Positions 6,259 through 46,944 of a stretch of 64,000 nucleotides of DNA are shown piece by piece. The position numbers and the translations under genes are program-made. The stretch comes from a beta proteobacterium MWH-UniP1 (GTDB taxonomy: Bacteria; Pseudomonadota; Gammaproteobacteria; Burkholderiales; Burkholderiaceae_A), in the NCBI GenBank assembly GCA_036362785.1, contig CP143625.1, positions 993,401 to 1,057,400 on the forward strand, read 5' to 3'. How positions within the stretch are numbered: the stretch's first letter is position 1; each line of letters opens with the position of its first letter. The notes beneath the pieces were generated by a model. The model had not been told where the DNA came from. It saw nothing but the letters and a program-made list of their open reading frames with translations, and made no database searches.

Positions 6259-6376
6259 TTGTTGCGGGTCTCCGGAAATATTACGGCTGTGTTGATGATA
6301 CCCGCTGCCCCAAGCGTTCTGGTCTGCACCGGTTAGTCTTGGCCCATATCAGTTGAACCCGTCACCCGCCGACCTT

Positions 6377-7798
6377 ATGAACCGTCGTGGTCTTATCAAA
6401 ACAGGTTTAACAATCGCCGCTGCGGCGACTGTTCCGCCATTGGCCTGGTCGGCACGCCCGGCGGGCCGAATACGTGAGCACACCTTTATTGCCCAGCCAG
6501 CAAGGCTTCAATTGCTGGGAAGTGACTACCCCTACACCGATGTCTGGGCCTTTAATAATTTATTGCCCGGCCCAGTCTTGCGCGCAACGCAAGGCGACAC
6601 CGTACGGGTGAAATTTCGCAATCGCCTGGCCCAACCGTCGACCATTCACTGGCATGGCATTCGTCTTCCCAACGCCATGGATGGGGTGCCTGGCATTACA
6701 CAGGCCGCAGTTAAATCGGGCGAAGACTTTCTTTACGAATTTGCGCTGCCCGATGCCGGTACATTTTGGTACCACCCGCATGTGTCCACCTATGAACAAG
6801 TGGGCCGGGGTCTGTTCGGCACGATCATTGTGGATGAGAAGATCCCGCCCGATGTGGATCAAGACGTCACCTGGGTCATCTCGGATGTAAAACTCACCAA
6901 AGAGGCCGCGATTGCGCCGGGTTTTCAAAGCCTGCACGATGCCGCCCACGCAGGCCGGCTTGGCAATATTGTGTTGGTCAATGGTCAGCGATCTCCAGCG
7001 GATCTGAGTGTGCGTGCTGGTGAGCGCGTGCGTCTGCGGATTTTAAATGCGGCAAGCGCCCGCATTTTCCGCCTGAAGTTTCATGGTCACCAGCCGCTGG
7101 TCGTTGCCTTTGATGGCCATCCATGCCCACCGTTTCCGCTGACAGAATCAATTCTGTTTTCACCGGGCAATCGTCTGGATTTAATCCTCGACTGCAGCGC
7201 TGCACCCAACACTGTCTTTGAAGTGGAAGATGAATTCTTTCCGGCCATGCGCAATAAGATTGCGCGCATTCAGTACAGCAGCCGCTCACCGCAGGCTCTG
7301 CGTGCGCCGTTTCAGGGGCTGCCGCCGAATCTGCTCTACGAGCCTGTATTGGCGGGTGCCGAGTCGGTAAAGCTGGTGCTTGAGGGCGGGGCGTTGTCGA
7401 ACAAGGCCACCCGTGAAAATATCTGGCTGGTCAATGGCAAGGGCAATGATCATGGCTCCCACATGGATGCCCATGGTGCTGCGCCAAAGCCGCTGTATGT
7501 CTTTGAGAGGGGTTGCACAGTCCGTTGCTTGATTGATAACAAGACCGCCTGGTTTCATCCCATGCACTTTCATGGGGTCGTGCTGCGTGAGCGGCTTGCC
7601 AATGGCCAGTGGGGCCCGTTTAAGGATTCCACCCTGGTCTGGCCATTCAAAACCCAGGAAATCGCCTTTGTGGCCGAGAGCCCTGGCGACTGGATGATTC
7701 ACTGCCATGTGTCGGAGCATCATCATGCAGGCTTGATGGGCACATTCCGGGTGGCGGATCTCTGCAAGACCCCTGCGTCGACCCAGCCTTCCGCCTAA
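6377..7798 (+). CDS. Tat-exported multicopper oxidase
   Basis: Periplasmic three-cupredoxin-domain oxidase of 473 residues. I prefer ATG 6377 over the in-frame TTG at 6353 because it puts the twin-arginine motif (NRRGLIKTGL) at the very N terminus, followed by a hydrophobic stretch. All copper motifs are present: HWHG, FWYHPHVS, HPMHFHG and HCHVSEHHHAGLM. The residue after the conserved Gly in the last motif is Leu rather than Met, so the type 1 copper may lack an axial methionine, as in laccases. There is no obvious Met-rich insert of the CueO type. The substrate (phenol, metal ion or other) cannot be read from sequence. It stands alone, divergent from the small secreted protein. Confidence 0.88.
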   Translation: MNRRGLIKTGLTIAAAATVPPLAWSARPAGRIREHTFIAQPARLQLLGSDYPYTDVWAFNNLLPGPVLRATQGDTVRVKFRNRLAQPSTIHWHGIRLPNAMDGVPGITQAAVKSGEDFLYEFALPDAGTFWYHPHVSTYEQVGRGLFGTIIVDEKIPPDVDQDVTWVISDVKLTKEAAIAPGFQSLHDAAHAGRLGNIVLVNGQRSPADLSVRAGERVRLRILNAASARIFRLKFHGHQPLVVAFDGHPCPPFPLTESILFSPGNRLDLILDCSAAPNTVFEVEDEFFPAMRNKIARIQYSSRSPQALRAPFQGLPPNLLYEPVLAGAESVKLVLEGGALSNKATRENIWLVNGKGNDHGSHMDAHGAAPKPLYVFERGCTVRCLIDNKTAWFHPMHFHGVVLRERLANGQWGPFKDSTLVWPFKTQEIAFVAESPGDWMIHCHVSEHHHAGLMGTFRVADLCKTPASTQPSA

Positions 7799-7886: not shown

Positions 7887-8750
7887 ATGTTTCGTCGTCA
7901 GATGATGAAGGGCGCTGTGGCGCTTGCAGCGACTTTGGTTTTTTCTTCAGCGTTTGCTCAGCAGACCTTGCGGGTCACGACTATTCCCGAAGAGGCCGCT
8001 TCGGAGCAGATTCGTAAGTTTGCCCCCATGACCAAGTATCTTGAAAAGGCCCTTGGCATGAAGGTGGAGTTCACACCGGTGAATGATTACCCCGCAGCCG
8101 TCGAAGCACTGGTGAACAAGCAAGTCGACCTGGTCTGGTTTGGTGGCTTTACCCATGTTCAGGCCCAGATTCGATCGGGCGGCAAGGTGATAGCCATCGC
8201 ACAGCGTGAGGAAGACAACAATAAGTTTCAGTCTGTGTTTATCACGCAGAAAACTTCTGGAATCACCAAGCTCTCTGACTTAAAAGGCAAGGAATTTAGT
8301 TTTGGCTCTCAATCCAGTACCTCGGGTCATTTGATGCCGCGATTTAACTTGCTCAAAGCTGGTGTTGACCCTGACAAAGACTTTAAGCGCCTGGCCTACT
8401 CAGGTGCCCATGATGCAACCATAGCGTCTGTAGTAAGTGGAAGGGTCGCCGCTGCCGCGCTTGATATCACGGTTTGGCGAAAGTTTGTGTCTGAGAAAAA
8501 AGTGGACACCAGCAAGGTGGATGTATTTTTTACGACCCCAACATTTTTTAACTACAACTGGTCGGTGCATGCGGATATGCCAGCAGCTTTGCGTGAGCGC
8601 ATCACTAAAGCCATTTTGTCGATCGACCCTAACACTCAAGAGGGTAAGGAGATATTGACGCTAGCTCGTGCAAGTAAATTCGTCTCGACCAAAAACGAGA
8701 ACTACAAGCAGTTCGAAGAGGCCGGACGCTTGATGGGATTGATTAAGTAA
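7887..8750 (+). CDS. PhnD-type ABC transporter substrate-binding protein, putative selenate importer
   Basis: Periplasmic binding protein of 287 residues with a signal peptide (core LAATLVFSS, cleavage near AFA-QQT) and the PhnD/phosphate-phosphonate binding fold. Hallmarks are the repeated DLVWFGGFTHVQA region, the SQSSTSGHLMPRF ligand loop and the GAHDATIASVVSGRVAAAALD segment. A subgroup of this family is annotated as putative selenate transporters because it occurs with selenium genes. Here it is followed by ATPase and two permease genes and, 5 kb on, by a selenoprotein and selA/selB/selC. The family is certain. The selenate assignment rests on context and on my recognition of the subgroup, and phosphonate or phosphite remains possible. 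No phn C-P lyase gene is nearby. Confidence 0.8.
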   Translation: MFRRQMMKGAVALAATLVFSSAFAQQTLRVTTIPEEAASEQIRKFAPMTKYLEKALGMKVEFTPVNDYPAAVEALVNKQVDLVWFGGFTHVQAQIRSGGKVIAIAQREEDNNKFQSVFITQKTSGITKLSDLKGKEFSFGSQSSTSGHLMPRFNLLKAGVDPDKDFKRLAYSGAHDATIASVVSGRVAAAALDITVWRKFVSEKKVDTSKVDVFFTTPTFFNYNWSVHADMPAALRERITKAILSIDPNTQEGKEILTLARASKFVSTKNENYKQFEEAGRLMGLIK

Positions 8751-8754
8751 GTCA

Positions 8755-9615
8755 ATGGCCATTGGCATTACTCTGGCCGCTGTCAGTGCGCGGCATCCTG
8801 CGGCTGCAAAGTCTGCTGCTGCGGCTATTCAATCCATCGACCTGAGCATCGCGCCCGGCGAGCAGGTCGCCTTGATTGGGCCGTCTGGCGCAGGCAAGAC
8901 CACACTGCTGCAGGTGCTGGGGCTGTCCATGCCGCCAGAGTCAGGCCGCCTTCAATTTGCTGGCCAAGACCCCTGGGCACTTTCGACCAGCGCTTTGCAG
9001 GCACAACGGCGGCAGATTTTCTACGCACCACAGACGCCACCCTTGCCGCCGCGGCAGCGGGTGGTCACGGCTTTGTTGGCGGCACGCTTGCCGGAACAGT
9101 CGCTGTTTCAAAGTCTGTTGACCCTGCTGTATCCGCGTGACGCGCACATCGCCCAGGCGGCCCTGGCCGAGTTTGATTTAGCAGACAAACTCTGGGAGCG
9201 AGTGGATCGACTCTCGGGGGGTGAGCGGCAGCGGGTAGGTCTTGCCCGTGCGCTTATTTGCTCTGCAAAGCTATGGCTGGTGGATGAACCCCTGTCCGCC
9301 CTGGACCCAACCCGATCCCGCCAGGCGATCTCGGTGCTGACACGGGCTGCAAAAGAGCGTGGGGTGACACTGATCACCACATTGCATCAGGTTGATGTGG
9401 CCACCCGCGAGTTTGCGCGTGTGGTGGGACTGCGCGATGGGCGCGTGGTCTTTGACTTGCCCTCTGGCCAGGTGACGCCGCAACGGTTGGTCGAGCTTTA
9501 TGCGCAACATGAGCATGAGCTTGCCCAGGTGTCAGGCACGGTGTCAGACACCTACAGCAAGGTGTCTGACACCTCGCCGTCACCAGAGCCCGCCAAAATC
9601 ATTCATTGCCGCTAA
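8755..9615 (+). CDS. PhnC-type ABC transporter ATPase
   Basis: ATPase subunit of the import system, 286 residues. Walker A GPSGAGKTT is at 42-50, the signature LSGGERQRVGLARAL near 153 and Walker B LWLVDEPLSALDP near 171. It starts 4 bases after the binding-protein gene. The last ~30 codons are unusual: the ATPase fold should end near ELYAQHEHEL, and the tail is encoded largely by two GGTGTCWGACACC palindromes and a degenerate third. It seems that a repeat cluster was inserted at the 3' end and is now translated (VSGTVSDTYSKVSDTS). The tail is likely dispensable. Confidence 0.88.
   Translation: MAIGITLAAVSARHPAAAKSAAAAIQSIDLSIAPGEQVALIGPSGAGKTTLLQVLGLSMPPESGRLQFAGQDPWALSTSALQAQRRQIFYAPQTPPLPPRQRVVTALLAARLPEQSLFQSLLTLLYPRDAHIAQAALAEFDLADKLWERVDRLSGGERQRVGLARALICSAKLWLVDEPLSALDPTRSRQAISVLTRAAKERGVTLITTLHQVDVATREFARVVGLRDGRVVFDLPSGQVTPQRLVELYAQHEHELAQVSGTVSDTYSKVSDTSPSPEPAKIIHCR
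9528..9573. repeat. Cluster of 13-bp palindromes GGTGTCWGACACC
   Basis: Perfect palindromes GGTGTCAGACACC at 9540-9552 and GGTGTCTGACACC at 9561-9573, with a degenerate copy (GGTGTCAGGCAC) at 9528-9539. All lie inside the 3' end of the transporter ATPase gene and are translated. The same palindrome occurs twice at 30511-30552, so it is a dispersed repeat in this genome. Confidence 0.8.
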
Positions 9616-9617
9616 CG

Positions 9618-10451
9618 ATGGGAGTGGCGGCAGTGCGTCCAGAGTTGCGTGACCCGGCTTGGATGGGCCGGGTCTTTTGGTCGCTTGCCGCACTGGTGAT
9701 TCTGGGGCCGGTCTTGGTGGCAACAGAATTCAAACCCTGGGTCTTGGTCGAGCCTGACAATCTCAAAGTCACCCTCAAATTTCTGGGGGATTTCTTTCCG
9801 CCAGTCATTACGCCAGACTTTCTTTGGATGGTGGCCAAGGAGTCGTGGCGCACGATTGCCATTGCCACTGCCGGAACTTTTCTTGCCTTGGTCTTGGCCA
9901 TACCGCTGACGATTGCATCGACCAGTGTCTTGTCGGTCTCATCAATTTCCGGCCGCATGAAGGCCCTGCCATTTTTGGTGCGTCAAATCATTCGTTGGGT
10001 GCTGATCGTGCTGCGCAGTATTCCCGAACTCATCTGGGCGTTGGTATTTGTTCGGGTAGTGGGCCTGGGGCCAGCGGCAGGGGTATTGGCCATTGGGCTC
10101 ACCTATGCCGGCATGCTGGGCAAGGTCTATGGCGAGATTTTAGAAAGTGGTGATGCCCATGCCACCAAGACCTTGCTGCGAAACGGTAGCGGCCGGCTAC
10201 AGGCGTTTTTCTTTGGCCTGCTGCCACAAAATGCCACGGAATTGACGAGTTACACCGTTTATCGTTGGGAGTGTGCGATTCGTTCATCTGCCGTTCTTGG
10301 ATTTGTGGGAGCAGGGGGCCTGGGCCAGCAGATGGATAACTCCATGAAAATGTTTAATGGCGGTGAAGTCGCCACCATGCTGATCGTATTCATGCTGCTC
10401 GTTGGCCTTGCTGATTTACTGAGCAGTTGGCTGCGCCGCGTTATGAATTAA
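9618..10451 (+). CDS. PhnE-type ABC transporter permease (first)
   Basis: Inner-membrane permease of 277 residues with about six hydrophobic segments and the EAA-type cytoplasmic loop typical of binding-protein-dependent importers (GLTYAGMLGKVYGEILE ... GSGRLQAFFFGLLPQ). I take ATG 9618; an in-frame TTG at 9606 would overlap the ATPase stop. The central IIRWVLIVLRSIPELIWA segment is the PhnE-family signature and is nearly repeated in the second permease, so the pair forms a heterodimeric channel. It is the third gene of the four-gene transporter operon. Confidence 0.88.
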   Translation: MGVAAVRPELRDPAWMGRVFWSLAALVILGPVLVATEFKPWVLVEPDNLKVTLKFLGDFFPPVITPDFLWMVAKESWRTIAIATAGTFLALVLAIPLTIASTSVLSVSSISGRMKALPFLVRQIIRWVLIVLRSIPELIWALVFVRVVGLGPAAGVLAIGLTYAGMLGKVYGEILESGDAHATKTLLRNGSGRLQAFFFGLLPQNATELTSYTVYRWECAIRSSAVLGFVGAGGLGQQMDNSMKMFNGGEVATMLIVFMLLVGLADLLSSWLRRVMN

Positions 10452-10500
10452 GTCTGGTGTGAAATTGAATCAACCTTACTGATCAGCCCAACACTTCGCT

Positions 10501-11325
10501 ATGACCCCACCCACCCATTCGCCAACCAAGCCTGGCCCAAACCCCTGGATGCGCTGGGACTGCTCGGTCTGCTGGGTGGTCACGGGGCTATTGCTTTTAA
10601 CAGTTGCAAGCTTTTGGTCGCTTGATCTTCAGTTGTCTCGCCTGCTGTCGTGGGACAGTGCCGCGCGCATGGGCAAGTTCCTGGGGGAGCTGCTGACACC
10701 CACCACCGACAGTAAATTTCTAAGCAAGCTTTTTATCGCAGGTCTTGAGACCCTGGCCATGTCCGCGCTTGGCACTCTGATTGCAGCGATCTTTGGGCTC
10801 TTGTTGGCGCTGCCCGCAAGCAAGACCCACGCCGATGATCCGGCCCGTTGGAAGTTCTTGGTGCGCTTGGTTTTAAATGCGTTGCGATCAATTCCAGAGC
10901 TGGTCTGGGCAGCTTTACTTATTATCTCGGCGGGTCTTGGCCCATTTGCAGGAACCTTGGCACTGGCATTTCACACCACAGGGGTGTTGGGCCGACTGTT
11001 TGCGGAGTCGATTGAAAATGCGCCACAAGATTCCGCAAAGGCATTACGGCTCTCGGGCGTGCCAGAGGGCCGGGTATTTATTTTTGCCACGCTCCCGACA
11101 GTGCTGCCACAACTGATGTCCTACACGCTCTATCGTTGGGAAAATAATATTCGTGCGGCTGCCGTGCTGGGTGTGGTGGGCGGCGGTGGTCTTGGCCAGA
11201 TGCTGGCCTTTCATATGGGCTTATTTCAAATGAGTGAGACCAGCAGCATCTTGCTGGCCATGATCGCACTTGTGGTCTTGGTGGATCTTTTGTCTTATTT
11301 CTCGCGACGGATAATGTCGCGGTAG
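10501..11325 (+). CDS. PhnE-type ABC transporter permease (second)
   Basis: Second membrane subunit of the importer, 274 residues, with six predicted hydrophobic segments and the same RSIPELVWAALLIISAGLG family signature as the first permease. The conserved C-terminal region (MSYTLYRWENNIRAAAVLG, then GGGGLGQ) matches the PhnE family. The N terminus is proline-rich and hydrophilic. A 49-base gap separates it from the first permease. It is the last gene of the operon and converges on moeA, leaving 58 bases between the stops. Confidence 0.88.
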   Translation: MTPPTHSPTKPGPNPWMRWDCSVCWVVTGLLLLTVASFWSLDLQLSRLLSWDSAARMGKFLGELLTPTTDSKFLSKLFIAGLETLAMSALGTLIAAIFGLLLALPASKTHADDPARWKFLVRLVLNALRSIPELVWAALLIISAGLGPFAGTLALAFHTTGVLGRLFAESIENAPQDSAKALRLSGVPEGRVFIFATLPTVLPQLMSYTLYRWENNIRAAAVLGVVGGGGLGQMLAFHMGLFQMSETSSILLAMIALVVLVDLLSYFSRRIMSR

Positions 11326-11383: not shown

Positions 11384-12661
11384 TTATCGAAGCACAATGA
11401 CGTCAACTGGCGTGCCTGCGGCTAGTGGGCCTGCATCATGGGGCAACACCACCAGACCATCTGCGTCGACCAATGATTTCAGGCTGGCGGCACCTTGTGA
11501 TGCGGATATCTCTGCAATCCATTCATTGTCGGCATCGCGCGTGAGTGTGCAGCGCAGATACTCCGTTCGGCCCGCCACTTTTTTGGCATCTTTGGCAAGT
11601 TTGGCGCGAATCGGGGGGCGGGCTTGCGGGGTGACACCAGCAAGCTGCTGCAGGCAGGGCTCGACAATGCCCTTGAAGGTAACAAACGCTGCAACCGGGT
11701 TGCCCGGCAGGCCAAAAAAAGGCACTCGCCCGCCTGTTTCGTTTGCCCCGACTGATGCCATCTGTCGTTTGATCATGCCTGCCGCGAGTGGCCGGCCAGG
11801 CTTAATCGCAAGCTTCCAAAACGAAATATCACCAAGCGACTGCATCACGGTTTTGGTGTGATCGGCCTCGCCCACGCTGACGCCGCCAGATGTAATCACC
11901 GCGTCGGCAATCGTGGCCGCATGTGTGATGGCCTGCTGCAAACTTTCCGCATCGTCATTCACAATGCCCAAATCAATCGCCTCTGCGCCGCAGCCGCGGA
12001 TCATTTCCAAGAGCATGGGCCGGTTGGCATCAAAGGTTTTTCCAGCCGGCAGCGGCCGGCCCGGTTCGGTGACCTCATCGCCGGTAGACAACACCGCTAC
12101 GCGAATTCTCCGTGTCACTTCCACACTCGCAATCCCCATTGAGGCGAGCAGAGCGATCTCGCGCGGACCAATAATGGTGCCCGCAAGCAGGGCGGCTGCA
12201 CCTGTTTCAAGATCTTCACCGCGACGCCGGACATTGGCCCCGGCACGAATTGCTGTTGTATCGAAGCGGATGGTCTGTGTGGCGTCGTCTAATTCCACGA
12301 GTTCCTGGGCAATGACGGTGTCGTGTTCCGGTGGCACGACCGCTCCGGTAAAGATTCGTACCGCAGTCTCCGCACTGGCCTGTCCTTGCAGGCCATGGCC
12401 GGCTAAGGATTTCCCTGATACTTGAACGCGAAAGTCGGGAACTGGGGACATTTTGTTAAACACCGAACTTGCAAAGGAAAAGCCATCCATGGCCGAGAGT
12501 GGGGCGGCCGGAATGTCTTTCGGACTCAGAATTGTTTTGGCCAAGGCCCGACCGCCAATCTCCTGTATCCCTAAGAACTGCGTCTGTTGGATCGGCGAAA
12601 TTGATCGGGAAATGGCGTCTAGAGCCGAACGAATACTCTGGGGTTTAAAGTTTTCTGGCAC
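11384..12661 (-). CDS. moeA: Molybdopterin molybdenumtransferase MoeA
   Basis: Inserts molybdate into adenylylated molybdopterin in the last common step of molybdenum cofactor synthesis. The 425-residue protein shows the MoeA order: N-terminal AxSAMDGF-like segment (APLSAMDGFSF), the GATVPxGADTV-like loop (FTGAVVPPEHDTVIAQE), RRRGEDL, the MPTb-type VLSTGDEVTEPG ... DANRPML, the SGGVSVGEADHTK site, KPGRP and FFGLPGNPVAA. The start is GTG at 12661. It is transcribed away from fdhA and converges on the ABC transporter genes. Its position beside a molybdenum enzyme operon fits its role. Confidence 0.95.
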   Translation of the reverse strand: MPENFKPQSIRSALDAISRSISPIQQTQFLGIQEIGGRALAKTILSPKDIPAAPLSAMDGFSFASSVFNKMSPVPDFRVQVSGKSLAGHGLQGQASAETAVRIFTGAVVPPEHDTVIAQELVELDDATQTIRFDTTAIRAGANVRRRGEDLETGAAALLAGTIIGPREIALLASMGIASVEVTRRIRVAVLSTGDEVTEPGRPLPAGKTFDANRPMLLEMIRGCGAEAIDLGIVNDDAESLQQAITHAATIADAVITSGGVSVGEADHTKTVMQSLGDISFWKLAIKPGRPLAAGMIKRQMASVGANETGGRVPFFGLPGNPVAAFVTFKGIVEPCLQQLAGVTPQARPPIRAKLAKDAKKVAGRTEYLRCTLTRDADNEWIAEISASQGAASLKSLVDADGLVVLPHDAGPLAAGTPVDVIVLR

Positions 12662-12935: not shown

Positions 12936-15900
12936 ATGAACGCACCGATGAATCGTCGGCAGTTCTTTAAGATCTGCTCGGCCGGTGTCGCGACTTCCTC
13001 TGCAGTGGGCCTGGGGCTTTCCCCTGGCGTTGCTGTTGCAGAAGTCCGGGCTTTTAAACTTGCCCGCACCACTGAAACCCGTGGTACTTGCCCGTACTGC
13101 TCTGTGAGCTGCGGCGTCTTGATGTATTCCAAGACCGATGAGGCCACCAAGAAAACTAAAATCATTCACATCGAGGGTGACCCCGATCACCCGGTGAACA
13201 AGGGATCGTTGTGCCCCAAAGGCGCCGGTCTTTTGGACATGGTTCACTCGCCCAACCGGCTGCTGCACCCCGAGGTGCGTGAGCCCGGTTCAAAAGAGTG
13301 GAAAAAGATTTCATGGGAAGACGCATTGAATCGTGTTGCCCGCCATATGAAGGCGGACCGCGATGCAAACTTTGTCGAGAAAAACGACAAAGGCGTTCCT
13401 GTTAATCGTTGGAACACAACCGCATTACTAGTCTCGAGTGCATCCTCGAACGAGTCCGGCTACGCCATGGTGAAAATGGCGCGCGGCCTCGGCATGGTGG
13501 CACTCGACACGCAAGCACGTATCTGACACGCCCCCACGGTATCCAGTCTGGGTCCGACGTTTGGGCGTGGCGCCATGACAAATGGCTGGCCAGATATCCA
13601 GCATGCTGACTTAATTTTGGTGATGGGCGGAAACGCCGCCGAGGCACACCCTTGTGGTTTCAAATGGGTGACCGAGGCGATGGAGCACCGCAAGGCCAAG
13701 TTCGTGGTGGTGGATCCGCGGTTTACCCGCTCGGCCGCCATTGCGGATTACTACGCGCCGATTCGCGTGGGAACCGATATTGCGTTCCTGGGCGGTGTCA
13801 TCAACTACCTGCTGGCAAAAGGCAAGATTCACGAAGACTACGTTCGCAACTACACGAATGCACCGTTCTTGATTAATGGAGATTTCAGCTTCAAAGACGG
13901 TCTGTTCAGCGGTTACGACGACAGCAAGCGTGCCTACGACAAGAAGTCTTGGTCCTATCAGATGGGTGACGACGGATTTGTCAAAGTTGACATGTCCATG
14001 AAAGACCCCCGCTGTGTGTACCAGCTGATGAAGTCCCACTTCAGCCGATACACCCCAGAGAAGGTCTCATCGATTTGCGGTACACCCAAAGACCAATTCC
14101 TGAAGGTCTGTGAATACATTGCCGAGACATCACGTCCCGACAAGGTGATGACCATCATGTACGCCTTGGGCTGGACGCAGCATTCGACGGGTTCGCAAAA
14201 CATCCGCACCATGGCCATGATCCAGATGCTTCTGGGTAACGTTGGCCGCCCCGGTGGCGGTGTGAACGCGCTTCGCGGTCACGCCAACGTGCAGGGCATC
14301 ACCGACATGTGTGCTTACTCGGAAGTCTTGTCGGGCTATCAGCTCTCGCCGACGGATGCCGATGAGACGCGTGAGATGTATCTGAAGGCCCGCACGCCCA
14401 AGGCCACACGCCCGAATTCGATGAACTTCCCGCAGAACTTCCCCAAATGGAACACCAGCCTGATGAAGGCTTATTACGGGGACAATGCGACGAAGGAAAA
14501 CGACTTCGGCTATCACTATCTGCCCAAACGAGATGGCGCCTATGACGTGCTGGCGAACTTTGAACGTATGGCGCAGGGCAAGATAAATGGCCTGATCTGC
14601 CAGGGCTTTAATCCACTGGCTGCTTTGCCGAATAAGGCCAAGCTCAACAAGGCACTTGCCAACCTGAAGTTCATGGTGGTGATTGATCCGTTGAAAACCG
14701 AGTCGGCTGAGTTCTGGAAAAACTTTGGTGAGTTGAATAACGCCAAGCCCGAGGACATCAAGACCGAGGTGATCCGCCTGCCGTCCACCTGCTTTGCCGA
14801 GGACCCAGGTACCTTCACCAGTTCGGGCCGTGTGGTTCACTGGCACTACAAGGCGGCAGATGCACCAGGCGAGGCCAAGACCGATCGCGAGATCGTTGGC
14901 ACGTTGTTTACCAAACTGCGCGACATGTATCGCAAAGAGGGTGGTAAGGGCCGTGAGCCGTTGATGGCCATTAAGTGGAATTACTCCAACCCCAGCAATC
15001 CTCCCGCAGAAGAGCTGCTCAAGGAAATTTCGGGCCGCGCTGTGGTGGACATCAAGGACCCGAAGACTGGTGCCGTGCTCTTTAAGGCAGGCGAACAGTT
15101 GCCAGGCTTTGGTGTGCTGCGTGACGATGGTTCGACCGAATGTGGCAACTGGATTTACGGTGGTGTCTGGTCGCAAGCGGGTAACCTCTCGGCGCGTCGT
15201 AACAACGCCGACGAGGGTGGCATGGGTATCCACCAGCAGTGGGGCTACTCTTGGCCTGCCAACCGTCGCGTGCTCTACAACCGTGCGGGTGCTGACCCAT
15301 CCGGTAAGGCCTGGGATGCCAAGCGGCCCACGATTCAGTGGGATGGCAGCAAGTGGGCAGGGGTGGACATTCCGGATATCGCGCCGGCACTACCGCCTGC
15401 AACGGGTCCCTTCATCATGAACCCGGAAGGCGTCGGCCGACTCTTCGCACCGGGTATGGCGGAAGGTCCGTTCCCTGAGCACTATGAGCCGTTTGAGACA
15501 CCATTGGGCCGCAACCCAATGCATCCGAACAATGCGAAGGTCGTTAGCAACCCTTGTGCACGTGTGTTCAAGGCCGATGCACCGACGTTTGGTAAGTCGG
15601 ATGAGTTTCCTTATGCCGCAACGACCTACCGTCTCACCGAACACTTCCACTTCTGGACCAAGAACGTGGAGTCCAACGCCATCGTGCAGCCCCAGCCGTT
15701 TGTTGAAATCGGCGAGGCGCTGGCCAAGGAAAAGGGCATTAAGAACGGTGACATGGTCCGGGTCTGGAGTAATCGGGGCCAGGTGAAGGCGGTTGCCTCC
15801 GTGACCAAGCGGATTCGTCCGCTAACGGTTGACGGAAAGACTGTGCATCACGTGGGTATTCCGATTCACTTCGGATTTGTGGGCGTTGCCAAGAACGGTT

Positions 15901-15992
15901 TCTTGGCCAACGAACTCACGCCATTCGTGGGGGATGCGAACTCTCAAACACCAGAGTTCAAAGCCTTCTTGGTCAACATTGCTAAGGTATAA
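12936..15992 (+). CDS. fdhA: Formate dehydrogenase major subunit, selenocysteine-containing (UGA at 13524 = Sec197)
   Basis: Catalytic subunit of a membrane-bound, periplasm-facing formate dehydrogenase of the FdnG/FdoG type. It oxidises formate to CO2 at a bis-MGD molybdenum site. ATG 12936 follows a good ribosome site (GGAGGGA) and gives a Tat signal (NRRQFFK). The [4Fe-4S] motif is Cys52, Cys55, Cys59 and Cys93. The frame is interrupted by TGA at 13524, but both sides are in the same frame and the junction ARI-U-HAPTV aligns with the Sec196 site of E. coli FdnG, so UGA encodes Sec197. Total length is 1018 residues. A SECIS-type hairpin follows the UGA. It heads fdhA-fdhB-fdhC, with fdhB 11 bases later. 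A gene caller that stops at 13526 would split it wrongly. Confidence 0.96.
13524..13556 (+). promoter_or_regulatory. Bacterial SECIS element in fdhA mRNA
   Basis: UGA (13524-13526) is followed after 10 bases by a hairpin. C13537-G13556, G13538-C13555 and G13539-C13554 pair, U13540 is bulged, then A13541-U13553, U13542-G13552, C13543-G13551 and C13544-G13550 pair, with loop AGUCU (13545-13549). The bulged U and the GU in the loop are the known SelB contacts in E. coli fdhF, and fdnG has the same layout. This recruits SelB with Sec-tRNA. Confidence 0.88.
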
Positions 15993-16003
15993 GGAGACGA
16001 TTC

Positions 16004-16873
16004 ATGGCTACTGCTCAAACAATGAATGTCGTCAATCGCTCCGCTACCACCGCGCCCATGCCGGTGAAGTCCAATCCGGACATCGCGGTTGCTAAGTTGA
16101 TCGACGAATCAAAATGTATTGGCTGTAAAGCATGTCAGGTGGCATGTATGCAGTGGAACGACAACCGTGACGAGATTGGCTCAACGGTCGGTGTGTATGA
16201 CAACCCGGCCGACCTGACCACCAAGTCATGGACGGTGATGCGGTTTAACGAAGTTGAGCGCGCTGATGGCGGGCTGGACTGGTTGATTCGCAAAGACGGC
16301 TGCATGCACTGCGAAGACCCTGGCTGCTTAAAGGCATGTCCTGCACCTGGTGCGATTGTCAAATACGAAAACGGCATTGTTGATTTCGTTAAAGACAACT
16401 GCATTGGCTGCGGCTACTGCGTGGCCGGCTGCCCCTTTAACATTCCGCGGATCAGTAAGGAAGATCACAAGGCCTATAAGTGCTCTTTGTGTTCAGACCG
16501 TGTTGCTGTGGGTGAGGGCGCTGCTTGTGCCAAGGCCTGTCCGACCAAAGCCATTCGTTTTGGCAAGAAGAAAGACCTGGTGCAGTGGGCCGATAACCGC
16601 GTGAAAGATTTGAAAGAGCGCGGCTATCAAAACGCAGCCCTGTATAACCCCCAGGGTGTCGGTGGTACGCACGTGATGTATGTGCTTCGCCACGGCGATA
16701 AGCCCGAGGCCTATAACGGTCTTCCAAGCGATCCGCAGATCAGCCCAACGGTGAATCTGTGGAAGGGCATGACGAAGACGGTGCTGGCGTGGGGTATGGG
16801 TGCAGCCGTGTTGGTGGGCATTGCACACTACTTCATCAAAGGGCCTAAAGAGGTCGACGAGAAGGAGGTATAA
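16004..16873 (+). CDS. fdhB: Formate dehydrogenase iron-sulfur subunit
   Basis: Beta subunit of 289 residues that passes electrons from FdhA to the cytochrome b subunit. It has four ferredoxin-like [4Fe-4S] motifs: [39 protein letters not shown], and CSLCSDR with [11 protein letters not shown] single C-terminal membrane anchor ([19 protein letters not shown]) precedes a charged tail, as in FdnH/FdoH. It has no signal peptide of its own, so it should be exported in complex with FdhA through the Tat pathway. A strong ribosome site (AAGGAGA) precedes ATG 16004. The name fdhB follows common usage; fdoH or fdnH would also describe it. Confidence 0.95.
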
Positions 16874-16876
16874 GAA

Positions 16877-17503
16877 ATGAGTCAGACTTCTTCTGGAGAA
16901 ATCCAGCGTTACGCCGCCAATGAACGTTGGAACCACTGGTTTACAGCGGTCGTGTTTGTGCTGCTGGCGGCCTCGGGTCTAGCGTTCTTTCACCCGGCGT
17001 TTTGGTCGCTGTCAGCGGTGTTGGGCGGGGGAGAGTTATCGCGCTTCCTGCATCCAATCCTGGGCGTGCTGATGTTCCTGTCGTTTTTCATCTTTGCCAT
17101 TCAGAAATTGGGTGACAACGTGATGAAATCTTACGACTGGCAATGGATGGCGCGCTTTGGTGATGTGTTGGCCAACCGCGATCACGACATGCCTGAGATT
17201 GGCAAATACAACGCGGCCCAGAAACTGATGTATTGGGTCACCTTGTTGGCCATGATCATGCTGTTGGCCAGTGGCATCGTGATGTGGCGCCAGTTCTTCT
17301 CACACCTCTTCACGATCGACTTGCTGCGGCTTGCCGCACTGGTGCACGCCGTATCAGGGGTTGTGCTGATTATCACCATCATCGTGCACGTCTATGCTGC
17401 TATCTGGGTTAAGGGAACCATCAGTGCCATGACAAAGGGCACGGTCACCCGGGCCTGGGCCAAGCATCATCACCCGCTGTGGTATCGCTCCATGAGCAAA
17501 TAA
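16877..17503 (+). CDS. fdhC: Formate dehydrogenase cytochrome b556 subunit
   Basis: Gamma subunit of 208 residues with four membrane helices. It holds two b hemes and reduces quinone in the inner membrane. Candidate heme-ligand histidines sit in the first, second and fourth helices (NHWFT, LHPILG, HAVSG, IVHVYAA). It starts 3 bases after fdhB with a very strong ribosome site (AGGAGGT) overlapping the fdhB end. The set of Sec catalytic subunit, four-cluster subunit and cytochrome b makes a respiratory, proton-motive formate dehydrogenase rather than a formate hydrogenlyase type. A rho-independent terminator follows. Confidence 0.95.
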   Translation: MSQTSSGEIQRYAANERWNHWFTAVVFVLLAASGLAFFHPAFWSLSAVLGGGELSRFLHPILGVLMFLSFFIFAIQKLGDNVMKSYDWQWMARFGDVLANRDHDMPEIGKYNAAQKLMYWVTLLAMIMLLASGIVMWRQFFSHLFTIDLLRLAALVHAVSGVVLIITIIVHVYAAIWVKGTISAMTKGTVTRAWAKHHHPLWYRSMSK

Positions 17504-17604: not shown

Positions 17605-18549
17605 ATGCCAACTCCCATCATTACCGATGGCACCATGGACCGCATGGTCAAGGCGCCTCGGGTGTTGCTGCCCCAAGGTGCTGGCCTATTTCGTGATCGG
17701 GCAAACCGGTTTGATGCGATCGCCACCCGCGACGAGACAGGCGCGTATATGCGTTTTCTGGCCCATGTCTGCCGTGGCCAGTGCAAGTCCTATGATGCGC
17801 GCCCCGCCCAGCGTGTGTCAGAGCGCGCGATCTCCAATAGCCGTGAACATGGCATGCCACCGCTGTCGGCCCATGTCTTTCCCCGCGATGCCGCCTGGCG
17901 AGACGATCTCTCAGACATCGCGAACCACGTCAAAGCGGCCCTCGCGGGAACGAATTCCCAGGCCGAAAAAGTCATGTCTGACTTAATCACCGATGTGAAA
18001 TCCAACCCGGCAGAACTCGAAGCCATCGCGGATCGATTGATCGCCGGCATGTCCTTGCCAGAAGATGGGCCCAAGGTCCCGTTTGTGGGTGCGGCGCTTC
18101 AGGTGTATTTCACGCGGATGGCGGCGACATTGTCACCGGAAGATGTTGGCGCCTGTGATGTGGCCACCGTCTGCCCCTGCTGCGGCATGCGGCCCACCAT
18201 TAGCATGGTGCGCATCGATCCCGAGCGTCAGAACTATCGGTATCTTGTTTGTTCTCTTTGTATGACCGAGTGGAACCTGGAGCGTGTGAAGTGCAGTTCG
18301 TGTGAAGAAGAAAAGGGCGTCGGCTATCTGACGATTGATACAGAGGGTCAAAAGCCAGCAGATGCCCTGGTGCGGGCCGAGACCTGCGATGAATGCAAGA
18401 CTTACCTGAAGATCATTGTGCAAGAAAAAGACCCAAACGCTGATGCGCTGGCAGACGATTTAAATAGCCTGGCCTTGGATGTCTTGGTGGATGAAAAAGG
18501 GTATGCTCGGACCGGTCCCAACTTGCTTTTCTATCCAGGCCACGAATAG
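17605..18549 (+). CDS. fdhE: Formate dehydrogenase accessory protein FdhE
   Basis: Cytoplasmic maturation factor of 314 residues needed for active respiratory formate dehydrogenase, thought to bind the catalytic subunit before export. Four CxxC pairs in the C-terminal half form the rubredoxin-like metal sites of the family: CPCC near 190, CSLC near 216, CSSC near 230 and CDEC near 261. The N-terminal helical part (FLAHVCRGQ) also matches FdhE. It starts 23 bases after the terminator that follows fdhC and ends 2 bases before selA, so it is translated with selA and selB. FdhD, the sulfurtransferase usually also required, is not in the window. Confidence 0.93.
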   Translation: MPTPIITDGTMDRMVKAPRVLLPQGAGLFRDRANRFDAIATRDETGAYMRFLAHVCRGQCKSYDARPAQRVSERAISNSREHGMPPLSAHVFPRDAAWRDDLSDIANHVKAALAGTNSQAEKVMSDLITDVKSNPAELEAIADRLIAGMSLPEDGPKVPFVGAALQVYFTRMAATLSPEDVGACDVATVCPCCGMRPTISMVRIDPERQNYRYLVCSLCMTEWNLERVKCSSCEEEKGVGYLTIDTEGQKPADALVRAETCDECKTYLKIIVQEKDPNADALADDLNSLALDVLVDEKGYARTGPNLLFYPGHE

Positions 18550-18551
18550 TC

Positions 18552-19988
18552 ATGAACACCAAGGTTCTGCCCGGTCCGGGCGAATCCAAAACAAACCAGC
18601 CAGGCGAAACTCTCGCTGGCCCCCGTCTGCAACTACCGTCAGTCGATCGCCTGCTGGGCGATCCGGGACTTGCAGACATCATTGCCTCGATCGGCCGACC
18701 ATTGGTGAAACGGGCCGTTCAGGAAACACTTGAACACTTCAGGCAAGCCCCCAATTCGCAGGGGCCATCGCAAGAGCGCTTCATCTCAGAGATTCACGAG
18801 CGATCCTGTCAGAGTGTGGCGTCTCGGCTGTCCAACGTCATTAATCTTACGGGCACGGTGATTCACACCAATCTTGGCCGGGCCCTGCTGGCCCAAGAGG
18901 CCATCGATGCCGTGGCTAAGTCGATGCGGGCCTACAACGCCTTGGAGTTTGATCTCTCAACAGGTGAGCGGGGTGATCGCGATAGTGTCGTGGAGGCATT
19001 GATCTGCCGTCTTACGGGTGCAGAGGCGGCCACGGTCGTGAACAACTGTGCAGCGGCTGTGTTGCTGTCTTTGGTCGCCCTTGGTGCCCGCAAGGAAGTC
19101 ATTATTTCGCGTGGTGAGCAGATTGAAATTGGCGGTGCCTTTCGCATGCCCGACATTATGCGTGCGGCCAATTGCCGCCTAGTGGAAGTCGGCACCACTA
19201 ATCGTACCCATCTTCGAGATTTTGAAGAGGCCATCACGGAAAAATCGGGTCTGATTGTGAAGGCCCATCGTTCCAATTACGCCGTGACCGGATTTACATC
19301 GGAAGTGGGCGATGAGGCACTTGCCAAGCTCGCCCATGACCACGGCCTTTTTTATATGGTCGATCTCGGTTCTGGTGCGCTAGTGGACATGAGCCGTTGG
19401 GGCCTGCCGCGTGAGCCATTGCCATCGGACAGTCTGGCCAAAGGCGCCGATGTTGTGATGTTCTCGGGGGATAAATTATTGGGTGGCCCGCAGGCCGGGC
19501 TGATTGTGGGTTCCAAGGCCGCGATTGCGAAGATTAAAAAACATCCATTAAAGCGTGCACTGCGTGTTTCTAAAGTGGTGTTGTCCGCCCTGGAGGCAAC
19601 CCTGCGTGTGTATGACTCGGAACATGCTCTAGAGAATCGGCTTCCCGTGCTGGCGTTACTTACGCGAAGCCGCGATGACATTCGTGCAGCGGCCACCCGA
19701 ATCGCCCCAGCGTTGCACAAGATCGCAGGCGAAGGGTTTGAGTGCAGCATCATGGATTGCGCCAGTCAAATTGGCAGCGGGGCGCTCCCAGAAGAGCGGC
19801 TGCCCTCGGCAGCAGTGTGTCTGACACCAATCGCGGGTCGAAAAGGCGTGGGTCGATTGTTACAGCAGACGTTAGCGAAGTTTCGCGCACTACCCACCCC
19901 GGTAATTGGCCGCATCAAAGACGACTGCCTGATTTTCGATTGCCGCTGTCTCTTGCCCGCCGACGAAGCGCTACTCACGTCACGATGA
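18552..19988 (+). CDS. selA: L-seryl-tRNA(Sec) selenium transferase
   Basis: PLP enzyme of 478 residues that converts Ser-tRNA(Sec) to Sec-tRNA(Sec) with selenophosphate. Landmarks are INLTGTVIHTNLGRALL near 95, the CAAAVLLSL region, and the PLP lysine in FSGDKLLGGPQAG near residue 307. It starts 2 bases after fdhE and its stop overlaps the selB start (ATGA). The N terminus has a short proline- and glycine-rich stretch before the conserved fold, which begins at PSVDRLL. Its length matches the family. Selenophosphate must come from SelD encoded elsewhere. Confidence 0.97.
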   Translation: MNTKVLPGPGESKTNQPGETLAGPRLQLPSVDRLLGDPGLADIIASIGRPLVKRAVQETLEHFRQAPNSQGPSQERFISEIHERSCQSVASRLSNVINLTGTVIHTNLGRALLAQEAIDAVAKSMRAYNALEFDLSTGERGDRDSVVEALICRLTGAEAATVVNNCAAAVLLSLVALGARKEVIISRGEQIEIGGAFRMPDIMRAANCRLVEVGTTNRTHLRDFEEAITEKSGLIVKAHRSNYAVTGFTSEVGDEALAKLAHDHGLFYMVDLGSGALVDMSRWGLPREPLPSDSLAKGADVVMFSGDKLLGGPQAGLIVGSKAAIAKIKKHPLKRALRVSKVVLSALEATLRVYDSEHALENRLPVLALLTRSRDDIRAAATRIAPALHKIAGEGFECSIMDCASQIGSGALPEERLPSAAVCLTPIAGRKGVGRLLQQTLAKFRALPTPVIGRIKDDCLIFDCRCLLPADEALLTSR

Positions 19989-21889
19989 TCATTGGCACTG
20001 CAGGCCATATCGATCACGGAAAAACATCCCTGATCGCACGACTCACTGGCAAGAACACCGACCGACTGCCCGAAGAGAAGCGCCGGGGCATTTCGATTGA
20101 GTTGGGCTATGCCTACTGGTCGGATGGCCAAGAGCAGATCGGTTTTGTCGATGTTCCCGGGCACGAGAAATTCGTGCATGCCATGGTCTCGGGTGCAAGT
20201 GGGATTGACTATGCGCTTTTGGTGATTGCAGCCGACGACGGACCAATGCCCCAGACCCGCGAGCATCTGGATATTCTGCGGTTACTGGGGGTTGATCGTG
20301 GGGCCGTGGTGCTCACCAAAATTGATGCGGTGGAGTCGAGTGTTGCGGAGATCGCAGTTGCTGCAATTGCTGAACTACTTGCTGGACAGCCCGCAGAGCA
20401 CTGGCCCTTGTTTCCTGTATCGAGTCTGACCGGCGAGGGTATTGATGGCCTGCGTGCGCATCTGCTAAACGAGTCGCGCCAGTATCAGGAACGTGCGAAA
20501 GATGGCCAGTTTCGACTGGCCGTGGATCGGGCCTTTACGCTGCCAGGGATCGGAACCGTGGTGACGGGTACGGCCCATGCCGGCGAAGTGGGGGTGGGAG
20601 ATGACGTTGGAATCTTTACCCCAGGTACGGCAAATGGCGCCATGCGATCAGCCCGTGTGCGATCACTGCATGCCCAAGATCAGCCCGCAGAGGTCGGCCG
20701 GGCAGGCCAGCGGTTGGCGCTCAATCTGGTGGGTCTATCCCTAGACCAGGTGCCGCGCGGCAGCTGGGTCAACGGGGTGGGACTAGATAACGCCGCCACG
20801 CGCTGCGATGTGGTGATGCAGATTTCAAACGCGCATGATCGTGTCATCGGCCAGGGCCTTCAGGTCCACCTGCATCATGGGGCCTTTCATGGTCTGGCCA
20901 AGATTTATCCGCTGGATCGCGACCGGGCGGCCCCTGGTGAGGCATGTCTTGCGTCGGTTGTCGTGCCTGAATCGATTGCCATGTGTGTGGGGGATCGGCT
21001 GATTCTGCGCGATAGTCAGGCCCAGACTACCTTGGGTGGTGCACAGGTGTTAGACACCCATCCGCCAAGCCGTGGCAAACGCACGCCCGCACGGCTGGCC
21101 ATGTTGGCCACGTTGCCTGGCCGGTCTCTGGAGCAGGCATTGGCTGATTTATTGTCTTATTCACCGCTGCCAATTACACGGGTTGCGTCTTCTTGGAATT
21201 GGCGCAGCAGCGATGTGGTGGCGCTTGCGCAGCGTTTGAATTTCCCGGTGGCGGGAGATGTGATTTTTCATCCGGTGCAGTGGGAGGCCTTTTGCGAAAA
21301 GGTCTTGCTCTCGATTGATGAGACCCATGTTCGTGAGCCCGAGATGCCCGGCATGGAATTAAATCGTTGCCGTCGGGTGGCAGCGCCACAGCTGGACGCC
21401 GATGCCTTTTCAGAATTGACTGCATCTTTGGTGGGGCAGGGCCTGATTGTGCAAAAGGGTGCATTTTTGGCCAGGCCCACCCATAAGGCTGAGTTGAGCG
21501 ATGCTGAAAAAAATCTCTGGCGATCCATTGCCCCGCTTCTTGATGAATCTCCCTACAATCCGCCTCGGGTTAGGGATATTGCCAATCTGGTCAACATCCC
21601 GGAAACAGAGATTCGTGCGAATCTACGGCGTGTAGCGCGAATCGGGGAGGTCACGCTGATCGCCCTGGATCACTTCTTTCTGGCCCATCGGGTGGCAGAG
21701 ATGGCCCAGATAGTTCAAGAAATTTTTGATCAAAAAGGGGTGATTCGGGCGGCAGACTTTCGGGATCGTATTGGTGGTGGCCGAAAGGTTGCCATACAGA
21801 TTCTTGAATTTTTTGATCGAATTGGATACACGCGACGTGTTCGGGATGACCATCTGATTCGTCGATCTAACCCGTTTGTGTTGAATTAA
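19985..21889 (+). CDS. selB: Selenocysteine-specific elongation factor SelB
   Basis: Translation factor of 634 residues that carries Sec-tRNA to the ribosome at UGA codons with a SECIS hairpin. Translation from ATG 19985, overlapping the selA stop, gives the usual start MIIGTAGHIDHGKTSL. GTPase motifs are G1 GHIDHGKTS, G3 DVPGHE and G4 TKID. The C-terminal third has the winged-helix repeats that bind the SECIS RNA. An in-frame open stretch continues upstream to 19742, but it lies inside selA and is not part of the protein. The tRNA-Sec gene begins one base after its stop. The bulged-U SECIS in fdhA is the expected ligand. Confidence 0.96.
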   Translation: MIIGTAGHIDHGKTSLIARLTGKNTDRLPEEKRRGISIELGYAYWSDGQEQIGFVDVPGHEKFVHAMVSGASGIDYALLVIAADDGPMPQTREHLDILRLLGVDRGAVVLTKIDAVESSVAEIAVAAIAELLAGQPAEHWPLFPVSSLTGEGIDGLRAHLLNESRQYQERAKDGQFRLAVDRAFTLPGIGTVVTGTAHAGEVGVGDDVGIFTPGTANGAMRSARVRSLHAQDQPAEVGRAGQRLALNLVGLSLDQVPRGSWVNGVGLDNAATRCDVVMQISNAHDRVIGQGLQVHLHHGAFHGLAKIYPLDRDRAAPGEACLASVVVPESIAMCVGDRLILRDSQAQTTLGGAQVLDTHPPSRGKRTPARLAMLATLPGRSLEQALADLLSYSPLPITRVASSWNWRSSDVVALAQRLNFPVAGDVIFHPVQWEAFCEKVLLSIDETHVREPEMPGMELNRCRRVAAPQLDADAFSELTASLVGQGLIVQKGAFLARPTHKAELSDAEKNLWRSIAPLLDESPYNPPRVRDIANLVNIPETEIRANLRRVARIGEVTLIALDHFFLAHRVAEMAQIVQEIFDQKGVIRAADFRDRIGGGRKVAIQILEFFDRIGYTRRVRDDHLIRRSNPFVLN

Positions 21890-21890
21890 T

Positions 21891-21986
21891 GGAAGGGTGT
21901 CGCGGCCCGGTGGTCCGGTCAGACTTCAAATCTGATAGGGGTTGCCAGCAATCCCTGGTGGGTTCGACTCCCATACCCTTCCGCCA
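21891..21986 (+). tRNA. selC: tRNA-Sec (UCA anticodon)
   Basis: A 96-base tRNA with the 8-bp acceptor stem (GGAAGGGT 21891-21898 with ACCCTTCC 21975-21982) typical of bacterial tRNA-Sec, a long variable arm, discriminator G and encoded CCA. The anticodon TCA is at 21926-21928 in loop CTTCAAA. It starts one base after the selB stop, so it is probably cut out of the selAB transcript. Confidence 0.97.
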
Positions 21987-22006
21987 ATTTTTTGAGGGTG
22001 ATGAAC

Positions 22007-22489
22007 ATGGAACTAGCACAAATCCTTGCTGAACTGCCGGAAGATTATCTCTACGCAGCTGAACAAGATCTGTGGGTTCGGCCCGAGGGCGAGGAGGTCG
22101 TCGTTGGGGCCAACCGCTTCGTGGTCACCCACGGCCAGTTCATGTTGTTTTATCCCAGGCCCTGTGAAATTCCCGTCATGCGTGATCGCTCGCTTGGGGT
22201 GATGGAGACTGCCAAAACGGCAGTGGCCATTTCTTGTCCCTTGAGCTGCACGATTGTGGAAACGAACCAGGCGGTGCAAAACAATATCGAGGTGGTAACG
22301 CAAGACCCTTATGGCGCGGGCTGGCTCTACCGTCTGCGCCCAATCGCATGGGAAGAAGAGTCCCCGTTACTGATGGATGTGCACCGTTATCGTCAGTGGC
22401 TTACCGACAATGTCGGCAGCCGGCTTCGTGCCCCTGATCCCCAGAAATACGAGCTGCCAAGTATTGATCCGCAAAATATTAGTTACTAG
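22007..22489 (+). CDS. GcvH-like lipoyl-domain protein
   Basis: A 160-residue protein of the glycine cleavage H family fold. ATG 22007 is chosen over ATG 22001 and TTG 21992 because a GAGGGTG ribosome site lies 6 bases upstream. The lipoyl-lysine loop is METAKTA, with Lys70 at the position of the lipoylated lysine in GcvH (ESVKAA). DPYGAGWLYRLRP matches the GcvH end motif. Unlike housekeeping GcvH it has cysteines at 53, 77 and 81 near that loop, and a C-terminal extension of about 20 residues. No gcvT or gcvP is near. It sits between selC and a DsrE-like gene, an arrangement that recalls the lipoate-binding protein plus DsrE partners of sulfur-oxidising sHdr clusters. A sulfur or selenium carrier role is inference. 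Confidence 0.8.
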   Translation: MELAQILAELPEDYLYAAEQDLWVRPEGEEVVVGANRFVVTHGQFMLFYPRPCEIPVMRDRSLGVMETAKTAVAISCPLSCTIVETNQAVQNNIEVVTQDPYGAGWLYRLRPIAWEEESPLLMDVHRYRQWLTDNVGSRLRAPDPQKYELPSIDPQNISY

Positions 22490-22539
22490 GGTGCTCTGCG
22501 TGTTGCTGCTGCCATGTCATTCATCAACCATGAAGCATC

Positions 22540-22917
22540 ATGGCGGTTAACCGTTTAGTGATTGTTATGTGGCAGGCCGACCCGGATGCGCCCGCAAAGG
22601 CGGCAGCACCACTGGTCTATGCCTTGTGTGCCCGTGCCATGGATATGGAAGTCGAGATTCATCTCACATCAAAGGCGGTCTGTTGGGCCTTTGATGGCGT
22701 TGCCGCCCGGGCCTATTCAGACCAGAACAATTCCCAAACGATTCTGGACTATATGCAGCGGGCTGCCGCAATGGGCGTAAAAATATATATGTGCGGCATG
22801 GCGCTTACCGAACATCATCGCGGCGAAGCGATCATTGCCGAGGTGACTGGGCAGACCGGCGCCACCGCCGTGATTGGTCAGTTGCAGCGAGATGACACTC
22901 GGGTACTCGTGTTCTAA
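22540..22917 (+). CDS. DsrE/DsrF-like family protein
   Basis: A 125-residue protein with the DsrE fold: beta strand RLVIVMW, a helix with CARAMDM, EIHLTSKAV, and the conserved segment GVKIYMCGMALTEHH. Cys85 in that segment matches the sulfur-binding cysteine of DsrE/TusD proteins; Cys30 and Cys48 are also present. Proteins of this family carry persulfide sulfur between enzymes. It follows the GcvH-like gene after 50 bases and converges on serB. The pair with a lipoyl-domain protein next to selC suggests a role in sulfur or selenium handling for formate dehydrogenase. That role is inferred from position only. Confidence 0.8.
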   Translation: MAVNRLVIVMWQADPDAPAKAAAPLVYALCARAMDMEVEIHLTSKAVCWAFDGVAARAYSDQNNSQTILDYMQRAAAMGVKIYMCGMALTEHHRGEAIIAEVTGQTGATAVIGQLQRDDTRVLVF

Positions 22918-45930: not shown

Positions 45931-46944
45931 TTAAATCAGCGCAGTTGCTGCCGGGTGCTGGTTGATCATCTCGGCCTGCCCGTACTGGGCATAATTTTTC
46001 TCCATCGACCGCCGATAGGTCGGGTCGTAGTGGTGCACCAGCAACGACTCAACAAGCCGTGACCAGTCTTTGGCTTGAATAGCCTCGACCCATTCATTGA
46101 GTCGCGTACCGCCCACCAAGGGTTTGAGTCGGGTGAGCTGGGCCACCAGCACATCGGGCTGCTCAAAAAAATGGGCATAGTCCTGGCAAAGAAAATTCAC
46201 GCGATCGGCAAGCGTTGGCGTGATCTCAATGCAGCGGCTCTCCCGCATCTTGGTAATCACCGCATCGGGCACCTGAACGGTGCCGATCTTTTTGCTCTCG
46301 GATTCCACAAAAACTTCTTGTTGTGGATCGAAGTGCCGAAGCTGGTCCCAGATCAGGGTCTCGAAAAATTTCTGGCTCGGCTGCTCTCCAATGGGTTCGT
46401 TGCCCAGCAGGGAACCACGGTGATGGGCAAGCTTTTCTAAATCCAGAACCTGATAGCCCTGGGCAGCGAGCTGCCGTAGATACAAGCTTTTCCCAGACCC
46501 GGTCACACCGCAGACCACCGCATACTGAAACTGTTCGGCAAGCCTTGCCATATCGCCCACCACATGGCGGCGATAGGCGGTATAGCCGCCGGTAAGCACA
46601 TGGGCCCGCCAGCCAATGCGCTGCATGATGGTGGCCATGGCATTGCTTCGATTACCACCGCGCCAGCAATAAATCAGCGGCCGCCAGTTGCGGGGCTGAT
46701 TCATAAATTGTGTTTCGAGTGCGATGGCAATGTTGCGTGCTACCAGGGCCGCGCCGCGTTTTTTGGCGTCAAACGGTGAGCTTGCATAAAGCGTGCCCAC
46801 CTCGGCGCGCTCTTCATTATTTAAGACCGGCGAGTTGATCGCACCCGGTAAATGATCGTGGGCGAATTCGGCTGGCGAGCGGACATCAATAATGCTGTCG
46901 AATTCGCCCCAGCGATCGATTGCCTGATCTATGGTGATTTGCAT
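45931..46944 (-). CDS. mnmH: tRNA 2-selenouridine synthase
   Basis: Enzyme of 337 residues (also SelU or YbbB) that exchanges sulfur for selenium at the wobble 2-thiouridine of tRNAs for Lys, Glu and Gln, using selenophosphate. The N-terminal rhodanese domain starts DVRSPAEFAHDHLPGA and has the active Cys in LIYCWRGGNRS near residue 92. A P-loop GVTGSGKSLYL follows near 148, for the geranyl-transfer step. It is the last gene of the minus-strand dapD-to-mnmH run, 12 bases after the GST gene. It is a second, independent use of selenium in this genome beside the Sec formate dehydrogenase. Confidence 0.94.
   Translation of the reverse strand: MQITIDQAIDRWGEFDSIIDVRSPAEFAHDHLPGAINSPVLNNEERAEVGTLYASSPFDAKKRGAALVARNIAIALETQFMNQPRNWRPLIYCWRGGNRSNAMATIMQRIGWRAHVLTGGYTAYRRHVVGDMARLAEQFQYAVVCGVTGSGKSLYLRQLAAQGYQVLDLEKLAHHRGSLLGNEPIGEQPSQKFFETLIWDQLRHFDPQQEVFVESESKKIGTVQVPDAVITKMRESRCIEITPTLADRVNFLCQDYAHFFEQPDVLVAQLTRLKPLVGGTRLNEWVEAIQAKDWSRLVESLLVHHYDPTYRRSMEKNYAQYGQAEMINQHPAATALI

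Follow-up and report, generated by a model that had tools for sequence, protein, structure and literature searches.

A GcvH-like and DsrE-like gene pair behind selC marks clusters for selenocysteine-containing formate dehydrogenase and is a candidate chalcogen-transfer pair

The window, by which we mean the whole analysed stretch of 64,000 nucleotides, is part of a complete 2.05 Mb Burkholderiales chromosome and carries, from 12.9 to 22.9 kb, genes for the alpha, beta and cytochrome b subunits of a selenocysteine (Sec)-containing formate dehydrogenase (FDH), followed by fdhE, selA, selB, selC and genes for a GcvH-like and a DsrE-like protein (Table 1). An earlier, sequence-only reading had placed the last two genes directly behind selC, which was borne out by the ARAGORN tRNA-Sec call and by Pfam GCV_H and DsrE matches. 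The start it had given for the GcvH-like gene, position 21991, was corrected to ATG 22007 (MELAQIL...), because the spacing of this codon to a GAGGG motif fits and homologues begin there. As the start codon follows selC by only 20 bp and a search for a terminator-like site between the two genes found none, selC and the GcvH-like gene are likely co-transcribed. The read-through translation of the FDH alpha gene contains one TGA, the in-frame UGA at 13524-13526, and the SECIS-like stem-loop of this gene reached a z of only -1.3.

Table 1 Features of the fdh-sel cluster and the adjoining gene pair in the window
Feature	Coordinates	Strand	Evidence
moeA, molybdopterin molybdenumtransferase (context)	11384..12661	-	Pfam MoeA_N/MoCF/MoeA_C
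Formate dehydrogenase alpha subunit, selenoprotein	12936..15992	+	Read-through translation with single TGA
Formate dehydrogenase beta subunit	16004..16873	+	TIGR01582, 439 bits
fdhI-type cytochrome b subunit of formate dehydrogenase	16877..17503	+	ORF order, homology to related fdh clusters
fdhE, formate dehydrogenase accessory protein	17605..18549	+	TIGR01562, 268 bits
selA	18552..19988	+	TIGR00474, 564 bits
selB, start approximate	20003..21889	+	TIGR00475, 419.8 bits
selC, tRNA-Sec (anticodon TCA)	21891..21986	+	ARAGORN
GcvH-like, putative lipoyl carrier, 160 aa, invariant lipoyl-type Lys70 (METAKTA)	22007..22489	+	Pfam GCV_H, alignment, predicted structure
DsrE-fold protein, 125 aa, invariant Cys85	22540..22917	+	Pfam DsrE, alignment, predicted structure

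Further upstream in the window, an ABC transporter (7887-11325) lies between a multicopper oxidase gene (6353-7798) near the fdh-sel cluster and the moeA-fdh genes. Its binding protein exceeded the cut-off of TIGR04553, a putative selenate ABC transporter (347 vs 250 bits), and homologous PhnD/C/E genes flank fdhG at three other loci (L223, L228, L056). In the sister genus (L025, L028), a multicopper oxidase 60-62% identical to that of the window is encoded directly 3' of the DsrE gene. The window also holds mnmH for tRNA 2-selenouridine synthase (45931-46944, minus strand), a second selenium trait of the genome.

The GcvH-like ORF matched Pfam GCV_H with 64.4 bits (cut-off 22.2), whereas its 61.9 bits against the NCBIfam gcvH equivalog stayed below the cut-off of 115.85. 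As the sequence-only reading had stated, neither gcvT nor gcvP adjoins the gene; the genome's own gcvH lies ~0.75 Mb from the pair, beside gcvP. In a phylogenetic tree, GcvH proteins (100/100) and LbpA proteins of sHdr sulfur oxidation (100/95) each formed a clade, and the window protein fell into neither, but grouped with further proteins linked to Sec (100/97); taken together, the Sec-linked proteins did not form a single clade in this tree, which is based on a short alignment. The motif around the lysine differed likewise among the groups, reading E-S-V/T-K-A/S in GcvH, E-S/T-G-K-W in sHdr LbpA and mostly E-x-x-K-T in Sec-linked proteins. Judged by its sequence, the GcvH-like protein is thus neither an sHdr LbpA nor the GcvH of its genome, the latter in agreement with what had been proposed.

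Lys70, Cys53, Cys77 and Cys81 of the GcvH-like protein and Cys85 of the DsrE-like protein were all found at the positions claimed for them, and Lys70 is kept in 58/58 Sec-linked GcvH-like proteins. In contrast, Cys53, Cys77 and Cys81, the only cysteines of the protein, are conserved solely within the genus of the window and have disappeared from its sister genus and from Rhodocyclaceae, and no cysteine column reaches 60% in the alignment of the Sec-linked group. The role that had been suggested for these three residues was rejected, since they are lineage-specific. The predicted structure (pLDDT 89.5), whose best PDB match was the Thermus thermophilus H-protein 1onl (TMt 0.91), places Lys70 at a hairpin tip and Cys77 and Cys81 further along the strands, which together with the lack of conservation argues against the previously envisaged centre of Lys70 with these two cysteines.

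DsrE-type cysteines are persulfide carriers. The DsrE-like ORF consists of DsrE domains only (Pfam DsrE 40.1 bits, cut-off 22.7), and its candidate persulfide cysteine, Cys85, which lies in the sequence C-G-M-A, is kept in 46/46 DsrE-like proteins. Its predicted structure (pLDDT 96.1) best matched the DsrE/DsrF-like protein 3mc3, YchN, DsrEFH and TusBCD, with a Foldseek probability of 1.00, whereas searching the PDB by sequence with the single DsrE protein yielded chance matches only. PF02634, the FdhD-NarQ domain, matched neither the GcvH-like nor the DsrE-like protein.

The arrangement of the pair is far from chance. All eight homologues of the GcvH-like family (8/8) are flanked by selC on one side and a DsrE gene on the other, and scanning the genome collection with a DsrE profile revealed 38 loci, among whose named hosts are Azonexus, Dechloromonas-labelled MAGs and Rhodocyclus. 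A GcvH-like gene adjoins the DsrE gene in 38/38 of these loci, and a sel or fdh cluster is present wherever the contig reaches far enough. This recurrent linkage agrees with the earlier suggestion of a dedicated pair bound to Sec and formate dehydrogenase. Additional Burkholderiales families yielded more pairs, and Pseudomonas-sized genomes (6 Mb) of the class to which the window's genome belongs carry a divergent DsrE/GcvH-like pair ~4 kb away from selC (L181-L183). Across Burkholderiales, Rhodocyclaceae and these Pseudomonas-sized genomes, the surrounding cluster is usually fdh-fdhE-selA-selB-selC. In one further genome (G281; L080, L185), the pair is located near fdhE on a different contig from selA; it is followed by an ABC transporter with a permease that looks tungstate-type.

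The proposed survey of co-occurrence with Sec came out in favour of the link. Among Rhodocyclaceae, profile matches were obtained in 19/27 SelA-positive and 2/70 SelA-negative genomes (Fisher 5e-12), and three further SelA-positive genomes with a divergent pair at selC, which are not part of this test, raised the former count to 22/27. The two matches in SelA-negative genomes are sHdr-type LbpAs, and no Sec-type pair was seen in genomes without SelA. Of the apparent exceptions that were checked, G752 and G758 carry divergent pairs; in G766 the contig ends behind selC, in G727 and G250 no FDH is visible at the sel locus, and G232 is an 84% complete MAG. The pair is almost never present at SelA-positive loci that have no FDH in their vicinity (exceptions L119 and L235). 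Because most Sec-FDH clusters of Burkholderiales are without the pair, it is not generally required. Within Rhodocyclaceae, mobA (molybdopterin guanylyltransferase) often lies directly 3' of the pair (L030-L055), and Sec clusters of this family also contain a PF21706 flavocytochrome c sulfide dehydrogenase-type flavoprotein gene (L030:3243-4574, L186:10140-11573, L234), mostly between selA and selB and once behind the pair.

The Mo or W of formate dehydrogenases must carry a sulfido ligand, for which we know of no supplier other than FdhD. FdhD acts by sulfurating the bis-MGD cofactor, and in Methylorubrum extorquens it proved indispensable to every FDH activity tested (PMC13197769). FdhD (PF02634) was not found in the complete genome of the window and is missing from most named Rhodocyclaceae genomes with the pair, such as those of Azonexus hydrophilus DSM 23864 and Rhodocyclus purpureus DSM 168, whereas two sister species with the pair retain it; at three pair-minus Sec-FDH loci of Rhodocyclaceae, fdhD lies beside fdh (3/3). 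A one-to-one swap of FdhD for the Sec pair was considered and found no support, since the Sec pair alone was not associated with FdhD in SelA-positive genomes (p = 0.46) nor in Rhodocyclaceae (p = 1, before the divergent pairs were added). A pattern appears only with a wider LbpA class, defined as either the Sec pair or an sHdr LbpA. Among 300 Burkholderiales genomes, 86 have SelA, and a lipoyl protein of the LbpA class is encoded in 15/17 of those without and 14/69 of those with FdhD. In a stricter set of 67 Sec-FDH loci with FDH genes visible, 36 lack FdhD and have the class, none lacks both, 13 have both and 18 have FdhD only (p = 2e-8, uncorrected for relatedness). An independent-pairs test, with 2.4 pairs going the same and 1.0 the opposite way, was not significant (median p ~0.6), and in a loss-placement test FdhD losses fell on LbpA-positive branches only, with p = 0.05-0.13. 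Once relatedness is counted, the link between FdhD and the LbpA class is therefore suggestive, a lead and no proof. Nine FdhD-negative genomes with Sec-FDH clusters have no pair at selC and an sHdr-type LbpA elsewhere (G059, G069, G071, G074, G118, G203, G216, G245 and G303, among L090-L121), and a search for an additional gene common to FdhD-negative, pair-minus Sec loci found none.

We propose, at a probability of roughly 40%, that the two proteins form a chalcogen-transfer pair dedicated to Sec formate dehydrogenase, most likely providing sulfur for its Mo site. Lys70 of the GcvH-like protein would be lipoylated, and Cys85 of the DsrE protein would accept sulfane sulfur as a persulfide, with a cysteine desulfurase or rhodanese as the putative source, and load it onto the dihydrolipoyl arm of its GcvH-like partner. 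This arm may then supply formate dehydrogenase, most likely with the sulfido ligand that the Mo (or W) of its bis-MGD cofactor needs, a step that would be the job of FdhD elsewhere, so that FdhD could be lost where the pair is present, as in the window's genome. Such a relay is supported by the linkage to selC, selA, selB and fdh across many lineages, by the invariant lysine and cysteine and the predicted H-protein and DsrE folds, and, as regards Sec-FDH, by the restriction of the pair to SelA-positive genomes in Rhodocyclaceae. The FdhD pattern favours sulfur for the Mo site, in line with the neighbours moeA and mobA, both of the cofactor pathway. Against the proposal speak the FdhD found in 13/49 LbpA-class genomes with an FDH locus, the lack of an established FdhD link after correction for relatedness, the nine FdhD-negative genomes with an sHdr LbpA instead of the pair at selC and the many Burkholderiales Sec-FDH clusters without the pair. 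The window cluster holds no dedicated lipoate ligase gene, which likewise counts against it, and pure sulfuration would allow the pair to occur with Cys-type FDH, yet none was seen without SelA. Only tentatively do we extend the proposal to a second, FdhD-independent route, in which the lipoyl-bound relay would sulfurate the Mo site of Sec-FDH and sHdr LbpA/DsrE may serve likewise in FdhD-lacking sulfur oxidisers. If true, lipoic acid would gain a further kind of role.

The main rival to a sulfur relay is selenium delivery, whereby selenide or perselenide would be held on the cysteine of the DsrE protein or on the dihydrolipoyl arm and be passed to SelD or shielded en route to SelA, favouring selenium over sulfur. 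The presence of Sec-type pairs in Sec genomes only, the putative selenate transporter and the PhnD/C/E genes beside fdh described above, and the TusA-DsrE fusion YedF/FdhU as a selenium-linked precedent (PMC5322559) are consistent with this possibility, which we nevertheless regard as rather unlikely, given that SelA-positive loci without nearby FDH are nearly always pair-free and that the FdhD pattern and the mobA/moeA neighbours would be left unexplained. More doubtful still is a sulfide/persulfide buffer or quality control that would remove or channel sulfane sulfur and so spare selenide chemistry or the FDH cofactor from poisoning: the flavocytochrome c sulfide dehydrogenase-type flavoprotein of several Rhodocyclaceae clusters would fit, but its gene is not general, is absent beside sel in the window and has no direct link to the pair. 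That a stray sHdr sulfur-oxidation module (LbpA and DsrE) was carried along in the cluster is very improbable despite the two-component make-up shared with lbpA-dsrE of sHdr loci, because hdr-like genes are lacking at pair loci, the LbpA cysteines are not conserved, the lysine motif is distinct and the proteins lie outside the sHdr clade. Finally, the GCV_H domain notwithstanding, the idea that the protein is just another GcvH, serving glycine cleavage or lipoyl relay, can hardly be reconciled with the score below the equivalog cut-off, the true gcvH beside gcvP elsewhere, the position outside the GcvH clade and the constant company of DsrE at selC.

As the sequence-only reading had supposed, the literature searched, in which subscription journals are thinly covered, yielded no paper that describes the pair in connection with Sec and FDH. 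Comparing the dedicated relay that we favour with known systems, its likeness to FdhD is functional, the same proposed job of bringing sulfur to the FDH Mo site, and drawn from the gene-content pattern alone; the pair belongs to unrelated families with no homology found. Like YedF/FdhU (with YedE/FdhT), the window DsrE protein is a DsrE-fold protein tied to selenium and formate dehydrogenase biogenesis, but it has neither a TusA/SirA domain nor the CGXC motif and is paired with a putative lipoyl carrier, and no YedE gene was seen beside the pair. With DsrEFH/TusBCD it shares the fold and the single conserved DsrE/TusD-type cysteine, whereas it is encoded by a single gene without F/H or B/C partners in the locus and is only 10-19% identical. 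The GcvH-like protein has the fold and the lipoyl lysine position of GcvH, from which it is set apart by score, clade and gene neighbourhood.

A close parallel is the sHdr system, in which sulfur oxidation depends on LbpA, a protein that presumably presents bound substrate (PMC6067878). As in sHdr LbpA/DsrE (PMC6067878), a small relative of the H-protein with a single lipoyl domain and an invariant lysine, which is not the GcvH of glycine cleavage, is encoded beside a DsrE-fold gene. Unlike sHdr loci, the pair locus has no lplA/lipS, and neither hdr-like nor lipoate ligase genes were found among the window ORFs, inspected by eye, or among the genes common to related loci. Close to each of its termini, sHdr LbpA has one strictly conserved cysteine (PMC6067878), the N-terminal one being present in 29/29 LbpA2 sequences of our alignment. 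Neither is conserved in the Sec-linked GcvH-like proteins, which mostly carry E-x-x-K-T in place of the E-S-G-K-W of sHdr LbpA and are tied to Sec and FDH instead of sulfur oxidation. The combination of a lipoyl carrier with a DsrE protein is a module type already known from sHdr.
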